Positions 8,573 through 13,952 of a stretch of DNA of 64,000 bases are shown one piece after another. The translations under genes and the position numbers were made by a program. Origin of the DNA: an uncultured Pelagibacteraceae bacterium (GTDB taxonomy: Bacteria; Pseudomonadota; Alphaproteobacteria; Pelagibacterales; Pelagibacteraceae); assembly GCA_902566775.1 (NCBI GenBank), contig CACFKF010000002.1:1-64000 (forward strand), written 5' to 3'. Position 1 is the first letter of the stretch. The number at the start of each line of letters is the position of its first letter. Under the pieces are notes generated by a model. That model was not told where the DNA came from. It saw only the letters and a program-made list of their open reading frames with translations, and searched no databases.

Positions 8573-9682
8573 ATGAAAAATTATTTTGTTGCCAAATCAA
8601 GGAGAGTTAGAAGCACTCCCTACACTTCAAGAATTGAAAAACAAGGTGTGACGGCTTATTCAGTTTATAATCATATGCTTTTGCCCGCCGCATTTGGATC
8701 TTTAGAGGATTCTTATCATCATTTAAAAAAAAATGTCCAAATCTGGGATGTTGCAGGCGAAAGACAAGTTGAAATATCTGGAAAAGACTCTGCAAAATTA
8801 GTTCAATTAATGACTTGCAGAGATCTTTCAAAATCTAAAGCAGGAAGATGTTATTACTGCCCAATTATAGATGACAAAGCAGGATTAATAAATGATCCAG
8901 TTATATTAAAACTTGATGAGAAACGTTGGTGGATTTCCATAGCAGATTCAGATGTAATTTTATTTGCAAAAGGCTTAGCCATTGGAAACAAGTTTGATGT
9001 TAAAATATTTGAACCTAATGTGGATATATTAGCAGTACAAGGACCAAAATCTTTTGAACTAATGGAAAAAATTTTTGGAAAAAAAATTTCTGAAATGAAA
9101 TTTTTTGGTTTTGATTATTTTGAATTTTCTGGATCAAAACACTTAATTGCAAGATCAGGCTGGTCAAAACAAGGAGGTTACGAAATTTATGTGGAAGATA
9201 AAAAATCTGGACTTGAATTATATGATAAACTTTTTGAACTTGGTAAAGAATTTGATGTAAAACCTGGATGTCCAAATTTAATTGAGAGAATTGAAAGTGC
9301 CTTACTGTCATATGGTAATGATATGGACAATGACGACAACCCACTTGAGTGTGGTTTGGATAAATATGTAAATTTAGATACAGATGCAAATTTTCTTGGA
9401 AAAGAAAAACTAAAAGAAGTTAAAAGAAAAGGAATTACAAGAAAGTTAATGGGAGTAATAATTGAAACAAAAGAAATAAATGTATCAAAATCAATCAATC
9501 TTACTAACGACAAAAATTTAAAAATTGGTGAACTAAGATCAGGGGTTTATTCACCACATTTTAAAAAAGTAATAGGAATTGCAATGTTGGATAAGCCATA
9601 CTGCGAAGTTTCACAAACATTTAAAATATCAATAAATGATGATGTTTTTGAGGGAAAAGTTTGCGATTTACCTTTCATTTAG
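8573..9682 (+). CDS. dmdA: Dimethylsulfoniopropionate demethylase DmdA (GcvT-like)
   Basis: GcvT-fold protein; [54 protein letters not shown] as recalled for Pelagibacter DmdA; adjacent to dmdB/dmdC. Confidence 0.9.
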
Positions 9683-10693: not shown

Positions 10694-11077
10694 ATGGATA
10701 ATAATAAACCTCTCTCTCCGCATATCCAAATTTATAGCTGGAATATTTCTTCATTAATTTCAATTTCTCATAGAATTACAGGCGTAATAAATATTGTTGT
10801 ATTAACAATAATATGTTTTTGGATAGCTTCATTTTTGTTTGGTAACTCTATTTATGTTATTGTTCAAAATATATTAAATTCTTTTTTTGGAAAATTTTTA
10901 GTTATAGGAATAACTTGGTCATTTAGTTTTCAAATATTAAGTGAGATAAGACATTTATTTTGGGATTTGGGTTATGGTTTTGAGCTTAAAACATCAAATA
11001 TAAGTGGTGCTATAGTAATTTTTGGGTCATTTATAATGACAGTACTAATTTATATTCTGGGGAGACAATTAATTTAA
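10694..11077 (+). CDS. sdhC: Succinate dehydrogenase cytochrome b subunit SdhC
   Basis: SPHIQIY..ISHRITGV, IRHLFWDLGYGF; directly followed by sdhD, sdhA, sdhB. Confidence 0.93.
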   Translation: MDNNKPLSPHIQIYSWNISSLISISHRITGVINIVVLTIICFWIASFLFGNSIYVIVQNILNSFFGKFLVIGITWSFSFQILSEIRHLFWDLGYGFELKTSNISGAIVIFGSFIMTVLIYILGRQLI

Positions 11078-11407
11078 ATGGTAACAGCAACAAAAAAGTG
11101 GATTTTTCTTAAAATAAGCTCAGTTATTTTAATTCCATTAATGCTTTGGTTTATAATAAATTTTGTATTAATTTATGATAAAAATTTTGATGAAGTTTTA
11201 TTTTTTTTAACTAAAGAATCTTCTAAATTGTTATTATCGACTTTAATGATTGTAGCTTTTTTCTTCTCAGCACTAAGCATAAGTGAAATATTTGAAGATT
11301 ATGTGCATGATGAAAAAATTAAGAATATTTCTATAAAGCTTCTTTATTCATCTGCAATAATAATTCCATTTTTGACTATAATTGTAATTTACAATTTAAA
11401 TATATGA
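11078..11407 (+). CDS. sdhD: Succinate dehydrogenase membrane anchor SdhD (divergent)
   Basis: Small membrane protein between sdhC and sdh[14 protein letters not shown] corresponds to the SdhD EDYVH motif. Confidence 0.88.
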
Positions 11408-13179
11408 GCAAATATAAAGTTATAGAACATGAATATGATGTAGTCGTATTAGGAGCAGGCGGAGCAGGTTTAAGAGCCGCAGTTGGTCTTAGTGAAGTTG
11501 GGTTAAAAACAGCATGTATATCAAAGGTTTTTCCAACTAGAAGTCATACTTCTGCTGCGCAAGGAGGCATTTCTGCGGCCCTAGGAAATATGGGAGAAGA
11601 TGATTGGCGTTGGCATATGTATGATACAGTTAAGGGATCAGACTGGCTTGGTGATCAAGATTGTATTGAATATTTGTGTAAAGAAGCTCCAAGAGCCGTT
11701 TTAGAACTAGAAAGATATGGAGTTCCATTTAGTCGTACAGAGGATGGAAAAATTTATCAAAGGCCCTTTGGTGGAATGACTAAAAACTATGGAAATGAAA
11801 CTGTTCAAAGAACTTGTGCAGCGGCAGATAGAACAGGTCATGCAATACTACATACTATGTATGGACAAGCATTAAAACATAATACAAAATTTTTTATTGA
11901 ATACTTTGCATTAGATTTATTAATGAAAAATGGAGAGTGCAAAGGTTTAATAGCTTGGAATTTAAATGATGGAACCATTCATAGATTTAGATCTCATATT
12001 ACAATAATAGCTACTGGTGGATATGGAAAAACATATTACTCATCTACGTCTGCACACACTTGTACAGGAGATGGGAATGCTATGGTTTTAAGAGCTGGAC
12101 TACCTTTACAAGATATGGAGTTTGTTCAATTTCATCCAACAGGAATTTATGGTCATGGAACATTAATTTCAGAAGGTGTTAGAGGCGAAGGAGGTTACTT
12201 ATTGAATTCTAAAGGAGAAAGATTCATGGAGCGATATGCACCAAAAGCTAAAGATCTTGCATCAAGAGATGTAGTTAGTAGGTCGATAGCTATTGAAATT
12301 AATGAAGGAAGAGGAATTGGCAAAGAAAAAGATCATGTACATCTTCACTTAAATCACTTAGATCCAGAAGTGATTGAAAAAAGACTTCCAGGTATTTCAG
12401 AGTCCTCAAGATTATTTGCAGATGTTGATGTAACTAAAGAGCCAATACCAGTTGTTCCAACAGTACATTATAATATGGGTGGTATTCCAACTAATTATAA
12501 AGCCGAAGTTATAACTGTTAATGGTTCTGAAAAAGTTGTACCTGGGTTAATGGCAATAGGAGAAGCAGCATGCGTTTCTGTTCATGGTGCCAACAGATTA
12601 GGATCAAATTCGTTGATTGATCTAGTAGTTTTTGGAAGAGCAGCAGCAAAAAGAGCAGCAGAACTTTTAAAACCAGGGACTTCTCATGAGGAAATTTCTG
12701 AAAGTGAAACAGATAAATGTTTAGATAGATTCGAAAAATTAAGAAATGGCAATGGAACTAACAGGACAGCCGATCTAAGATTAGCTATGCAAAAAACTAT
12801 GCAGTCAAAATGTGCAGTTTTTAGAACTGAAAAAACTTTAAAAGAAGGTGTGGAAGAAATAAGAAAACCATTTGAAGGAATGGACTCAATATCGGTAAAA
12901 GATAAATCCTTGATTTTTAATACAGATTTAGTTGAAACTTTGGAATTTGATAATTTAATAAGACAGGCTATGGTTACTATAGATTCAGCTTATGAACGTA
13001 AAGAAAGTAGAGGAGCTCACGCAAGGGAAGACTATCCAAAAAGAGATGATGATAAATTTATGAAGCATACTTTGACTTGGTGTAAAGAAAGTAAAACAAA
13101 AATTTCTTATAAAGAAGTGCATAAATCAACATTATCAAATGATGTGCAATATTTTCCTCCTCAAGAAAGGGTTTATTAA
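11404..13179 (+). CDS. sdhA: Succinate dehydrogenase flavoprotein subunit
   Basis: [16 protein letters not shown], covalent-FAD motif [32 protein letters not shown]. Confidence 0.98.
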
Positions 13180-13952
13180 TGGTCCAAATAAATTTACCTA
13201 AAAACTCAAAAGTACAAAAAGGAGAATATTACAAGGACAAAACTGGATCAAAGAATATTAGAAAAGTTAATATTTATAGGTGGGATCCTTCTAGCGGTAA
13301 AAATCCAAGAATAGATACTTATGAAGTTGATATGGATAATTGTCCATCAAAAGTATTAGATTTACTAAATAAAATTAAAAATGAAATAGATCCATCAATT
13401 GCTTATAGAAGATCTTGTGCTCATGGAGTATGTGGTTCTTGTGCAATGAATATGGATGGAAAAAATGGGTTAGCTTGTACTAAACCCCATTCAGAAATAA
13501 AAGGAGATATTAATATTTATCCTTTACCTCATTTAAAAGTTGAAAAAGATTTAATTGGAGATCTAAGCACGTTGTATAAACAATATCATTCGGTTGAACC
13601 ATGGTTAAAAAATTCTAAAAAAGATGATGGAAAAGAAAATTTACAATCTATTGCTGATAGAGCAAAATTAGATGGTCTTTATGAATGTATAATGTGTGCT
13701 TGTTGTTCAACATCTTGTCCTAGCTATTGGTGGAATGGTGACAAATATCTTGGTCCAGCTGTTTTATTACAAGCTTATAGATGGATAATAGATAGTAGAG
13801 ATGAAGAAAGAAAAGAAAGGTTAGAGAAAGTTGCAGATGAATTAAAACTTTATAGATGCCATACTATTATGAATTGTACAAATGCTTGTCCGAAAGGGTT
13901 AAATCCCGCAAAAGCAATTGCATCTATAAAGAAAATGCTTGCAACAACTTGA
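13179..13952 (+). CDS. sdhB: Succinate dehydrogenase iron-sulfur subunit
   Basis: Fe-S clusters [53 protein letters not shown]. Confidence 0.98.

Follow-up and report, generated by a model that had tools for sequence, protein, structure and literature searches.

The sdhCDAB operon and its catalytic sites

The window, a 64,000-nucleotide stretch of a contig from an uncultured Pelagibacteraceae bacterium, contains a complete sdhCDAB operon on the forward strand (10694–13952). Its first gene, sdhC (10694–11077, forward strand), encodes a membrane anchor subunit of 127 amino acids with three transmembrane helices, which scored 116.9 bits against the cytochrome b556 subunit model TIGR02970 (cut-off 52.3) and also matched PF01127. 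The second gene, sdhD (11078–11407, forward strand), encodes another three-helix anchor of 109 amino acids, which scored 43.4 bits against the membrane anchor model TIGR02968 (cut-off 41.8) and whose profile matched 1NEK_D at 8e-24. The operon is completed on the same strand by the flavoprotein gene sdhA (11404–13179; 956.6 bits against TIGR01816, cut-off 727) and the iron-sulfur subunit gene sdhB (13179–13952). Two genes upstream of the operon, the window carries dmdA, encoding dimethylsulfoniopropionate demethylase (8573–9682, forward strand; 568 bits against a cut-off of 410).

The presence of two separate three-helix anchor subunits was indicated by the family models, AF2 models, and Foldseek matches. 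Among the E. coli and mycobacterial enzymes, the AF2 models (pLDDT 80 and 91) best matched E. coli SdhC and SdhD, and the SdhD model aligned to 2WU5_D with a TM-score of 0.81; being models of single subunits, they have no bearing on heme or on the contact between SdhC Glu84 and SdhD Lys12 discussed below. The two anchors are homologous to each other, with the SdhD rows stacking on SdhC in a joint alignment.

The preliminary description of this locus had listed an intact FAD histidine in SdhA, a full set of Fe-S cysteines in SdhB, and a retained quinone site. All three points were borne out when the subunits were aligned with their E. coli K-12 counterparts (NC_000913; residue numbers confirmed for SdhC H84 and for SdhD H71, R20, and D82). 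SdhA keeps the position of the covalent FAD histidine (H48, E. coli H45) together with the catalytic residues H244, R288, H355, and R398, while SdhB has a cysteine at every ligand position of the 2Fe-2S, 4Fe-4S, and 3Fe-4S clusters. At the quinone site, all of SdhB P181, W184, W185, H228, and I230 are kept (E. coli P160, W163, W164, H207, and I209), as are SdhC S23 and R27 (E. coli S27 and R31) and SdhD Asp74-Tyr75 (11297–11302, forward strand; E. coli Asp82-Tyr83).

Heme-ligand positions of SdhC and SdhD

Heme b is nearly universal in the type C line of complex II, where it lies off the electron path, and its purpose has long been debated. In the window, the motif region of SdhC reads ...SFSFQILSEIRHLFWDLG, which puts Gln80 (codon CAA, 10931–10933, forward strand) at the position of the E. 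coli heme ligand His84. The position of the SdhD ligand, E. coli His71, is occupied by Phe63 (codon TTC, 11264–11266, forward strand). Alignments with E. coli and of the family profile with the solved chains C and D of 1NEK, gapless across either motif, placed both replacements and their codons where the preliminary description had put them. It was likewise right that the conserved SdhD glycine, Gly75 in E. coli, aligns with a serine (Ser67, codon AGC, 11276–11278, forward strand). The strongest sign at the site was absent from that description: the conserved Gly88 of SdhC is replaced by Glu84 (codon GAG, 10943–10945, forward strand), one helical turn from the ligand position. Thus, the glycine four residues past the ligand (+4) is replaced in both anchors. 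A classical type C enzyme holds one heme b between histidines of SdhC and SdhD, positions that here carry Q80 and F63; we would therefore class the operon, from its sequence, as descended from the type C line but heme-less, rather than as classical type C.

A misplaced ligand would have offered another explanation, but no other histidine fits. Besides the ligand position, the only SdhC histidines near the site are H26 and H87, which correspond to E. coli H30 and H91; in E. coli, these touch the heme face and a propionate and are not iron ligands. The histidine of the SdhD DYVH motif was rejected as a ligand, because it is not part of the pocket and relatives do not conserve it. Nor do the two ligand positions themselves conserve a residue that could serve instead: relatives have phenylalanine, tyrosine, histidine, or asparagine in SdhD and glutamine or histidine in SdhC.

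The residues that anchor the heme propionates in E. coli have counterparts in the window in H87, H228, K12, R27, and E70. SdhC Arg27 (10772–10774, forward strand) is the equivalent of E. coli Arg31, which serves both the quinone site and the anchoring of the proximal propionate (PMC3290573), and is retained. SdhD Lys12 (11111–11113, forward strand) stands at the position of Arg20, the distal-propionate anchor; this position is basic in all 153 loci of the clade described below that have a residue there (149 lysines, 4 arginines), and lysine is not specific to the clade, since it is also found in the apparently heme-binding genus g8. SdhD Glu70 (11285–11287, forward strand) corresponds to Gln78, a proximal-propionate anchor. 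Wherever SdhD could be read at this position, the sampled members of the order had glutamate, including those of the heme type, whereas most other Alphaproteobacteria have valine or threonine. By already facing SdhC Arg27, this glutamate may have eased the loss of heme.

The same genome encodes ferrochelatase and a heme-copper oxidase (COX1), and its bc1 cytochrome b has all four heme histidines (pairs 97/111 and 198/212). A general loss of heme is thus ruled out, and the loss would be specific to complex II.

Distribution and history of the replacements

We compared loci drawn from the window's genus, order, class, and phylum, together with 80 named Pelagibacteraceae records (GTDB species genomes). 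A total of 157 loci, referred to here as the Glu clade, came from the window's genus (g1), the named records, and two sister genera, g5 and g6. Its SdhC ligand position carries glutamine in 143 loci and histidine in 14, while the SdhD position carries phenylalanine (122), tyrosine (25), histidine (7), or asparagine (1). After removal of identical pairs, 131 distinct combinations of SdhC and SdhD remained; 111 have neither histidine, 20 have one, and none has both. SdhC Glu84, invariant in 157/157 loci, is accordingly present at +4 in 131/131 pairs, and glycine at the SdhD +4 position in 0/131. Across the clade, the loss thus extends to the SdhC glycine as well as to both ligands.

Seven loci from the Pelagibacteraceae genera g2, g3, and g4 show the canonical histidine and glycine in both subunits. 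Genus g8, from the second family of the order, is also canonical (five loci, one without a readable SdhD motif). In genera g7, g9, and g10 of that family (12 loci, L071–L082), the SdhC ligand histidine is replaced by tyrosine (11) or asparagine (1) and the SdhC +4 position holds cysteine, serine, or aspartate, with the SdhD histidine and glycine kept.

Outside the order, 111 of the 119 sampled loci have the canonical pattern, a figure that is not a random rate, because an even alphaproteobacterial draw was combined with overweighting of the lowest-scoring SdhC and with the best phylum matches. A profile built from the heme-less SdhC of SAR11 was run against 398 genomes of the phylum; among the best 30 loci, none outside the order showed the signature. 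In the sampled loci, four from small-genome Alphaproteobacteria (L231, L232, L236, and L238) have tyrosine at the SdhC ligand position and glutamate in place of the SdhD +4 glycine, and L236 and L238 have glutamate at the SdhC +4 position as well. An acidic residue or glutamine at a +4 glycine thus accompanied ligand loss in 4/4 loci outside the order, as compared to 3/115 of the others (Fisher p = 4e-6, an optimistic value because related genomes were counted, L236 and L238 belonging to one genus). We regard these four as further candidates for a heme-free complex II outside SAR11. The association is not absolute, since L302, one of the three loci among those 115, keeps both histidines with arginine (SdhC) and glutamate (SdhD) in place of the +4 glycines, a pair that could possibly form a direct salt bridge.

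The SdhA tree, which is independent of the trait, united g1, g5, and g6 with an SH-aLRT support of 99 and placed the canonical g2–g4 clade as their sister group, with the second family as a separate clade (support 100); it was built quickly from a single gene, and some inner branches have supports of 82–93. This topology supports a single origin of the Gly88-to-Glu change. In the ancestor of g1, g5, and g6, the SdhD ligand histidine would have been replaced and SdhC Gly88 changed to glutamate, and the SdhC ligand histidine would have drifted to glutamine only later in most descendants. This order is likely, given that the SdhC histidine is still present in most of g5 and g6. Within g1, the SdhD ligand position drifts among phenylalanine, tyrosine, asparagine, and histidine. 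A nested g1 group (L083, L087, L101, L028, L193, and L206) has histidine there again, with the SdhC glutamine and the +4 glutamate unchanged. This looks like a drift back, as would be expected of a position free of ligand constraint.

Proposed function and alternative explanations

We infer, with a probability of roughly 85%, that the operon encodes a working type C succinate:ubiquinone oxidoreductase lacking heme b. The estimate applies equally to the absence of heme from the protein in clade members with neither histidine; for members with a single histidine and for the second family it is lower. The preliminary description had proposed such an enzyme, and its proposal is now supported by the SdhC Gly88-to-Glu replacement, by catalytic and quinone sites that remain intact, and by a yeast analogue. 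In such an enzyme, FAD would pass its electrons to the chain of three iron-sulfur clusters, which would reduce ubiquinone directly at the quinone site, itself intact, with no need of the heme. Since electron transfer between the 3Fe-4S cluster and quinone does not run through the heme, and since E. coli complex II engineered to lack heme is active (PMC3290573), the enzyme should work, and SAR11 complex II presumably turns over normally.

SdhC Glu84 most likely stands in structurally for a heme propionate. As the pocket is pseudo-symmetric, Glu84 should face the distal-propionate anchor and would pair with SdhD Lys12, the counterpart of E. coli Arg20. The remaining cavity would be filled by the bulky phenylalanine or tyrosine at the SdhD ligand position and by SdhC Gln80. 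E. coli SdhCDAB (1NEK) resembles the SAR11 enzyme in operon order, in its four subunits, in catalytic, cluster, and quinone residues, and in the fold of SdhC and SdhD, but has one heme b with His84/His71 and Gly88/Gly75, where SAR11 has Gln/Phe and Glu/Ser. The engineered heme-free variant of this enzyme is described in PMC3290573, with reference to Tran 2007, as having significant activity and supporting growth on succinate. It likewise combines a ligand-less anchor with activity; however, it is engineered and less active or stable, whereas the SAR11 form is natural and has a fixed glutamate that would compensate for the heme.

The closest natural parallel is complex II of Saccharomyces cerevisiae, which is heme-free by cryo-EM (9QDL/9QDM) and by spectra (PMC13066397). 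In yeast Sdh4, Tyr108 occupies the ligand position and the conserved glycine is replaced by Glu112, whose salt bridge with Sdh3 Arg97 substitutes for a propionate (PMC13066397). The yeast and SAR11 enzymes share a type C quinone site, a replaced axial histidine, glutamate instead of glycine four residues past the ligand, and a core richer in phenylalanine. The yeast combination of ligand loss with a +4 glutamate is thus found throughout the Glu clade. In contrast to SAR11, which usually lacks both histidines, yeast keeps that of Sdh3, the SdhC-type anchor, paired with Tyr108. Furthermore, the yeast glutamate lies in Sdh4, the SdhD-type anchor, and the SAR11 glutamate in SdhC, so that the two are parallel and not shared by descent. 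The membrane heme is also naturally absent from complex II of Tetrahymena and Perkinsus, as cited in PMC13066397; these are highly divergent eukaryotic anchors in supercomplexes, likened here by description rather than by sequence.

It is about an even bet that the SAR11 clade followed the structural route of yeast, with glutamate for propionate but in the opposite anchor, that small-genome Alphaproteobacteria took it again, that histidine loss with a +4 glutamate is a general signature of heme-free complex II, and that the second family represents a further loss. In that family, the SdhC histidine was possibly lost separately, with a Tyr-His contact as in yeast.

An unlikely alternative is that one heme b is still bound through propionate contacts and packing, with no histidine or with a weak substitute such as glutamine, glutamate, or tyrosine. 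The propionate anchors SdhC R27 and H87 and SdhB H228 are indeed kept. In addition, heme can persist in E. coli mutants in which one of the axial ligands has been exchanged, according to the title of Maklashina 2001 as cited in PMC3290573, and axial-ligand methionine mutants have been crystallised (2WU2 and 2WU5); the single-histidine members of the clade (20/131) could therefore still bind heme. Nevertheless, both ligands are missing in the other 111 distinct pairs and their substitutes vary freely, glutamate is fixed where glycine normally gives the porphyrin room, and yeast, the nearest natural analogue with a +4 glutamate, is heme-free.

A degenerate anchor that reduces membrane quinone inefficiently, in an operon that is decaying or in another role, would fit the fast drift of the anchor sequences and the mere ~9% identity of SdhD to its E. 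coli counterpart. However, median pairwise dN/dS was 0.21 for SdhC and 0.22 for SdhD (simple counting on non-independent pairs, with one SdhC outlier above 3), which indicates purifying selection on both anchor genes. SdhA and SdhB are intact, SdhC S23, R27, and H87 are invariant in the 157 clade loci, and SdhD D74/Y75 is kept in all but one gapped locus. The genome, ~79% complete, contained a single Sdh_cyt locus and no second one. Decay is thus very unlikely.

In a subunit as short and divergent as SdhD, the pattern might be suspected to stem from misalignment, a frameshift, or an assembly error, but the probability of such an artefact is negligible: the profile alignment with 1NEK_D is gapless with the invariant DY 12 residues downstream, the pattern recurs in independent single-cell and metagenome assemblies, and the same replacements in more than 130 distinct pairs from many genomes exclude sequencing error or chance. 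Acquisition from a fumarate-reductase-like source of type D, whose members, such as E. coli FrdABCD with its two anchors, are without heme (PMC3290573), would require no loss in place but is practically ruled out, since SdhA passes sdhA_forward and falls far below the cut-offs of the FrdA models TIGR01176 and NF006686, the SdhA tree sets the clade beside heme-type SAR11 relatives, and SdhC is 51–53% identical to the canonical SdhC of g2–g4.

Heme-free complex II as such is already known, naturally in yeast, Tetrahymena, and Perkinsus and by engineering in E. coli. For SAR11, we found no earlier report of a heme-less complex II in the open-access literature that was searched, and a paper on iron limitation in Pelagibacter does not mention succinate dehydrogenase. 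The fixed glutamate would make it simple to screen any genome for heme-free complex II by sequence. If our reading of the Glu clade is correct, each complex would need one iron atom fewer out of about ten, a saving in iron-poor water whose advantage is speculative. Heme would also be dispensable in a free-living aerobe that is under strong selection and runs the citric acid cycle. SAR11 ranks among the ocean's most abundant groups of bacteria, and a heme-free complex II in it would be a natural experiment on the purpose of the heme, for which the heme-keeping sister genera offer a clean comparison with the Glu clade.
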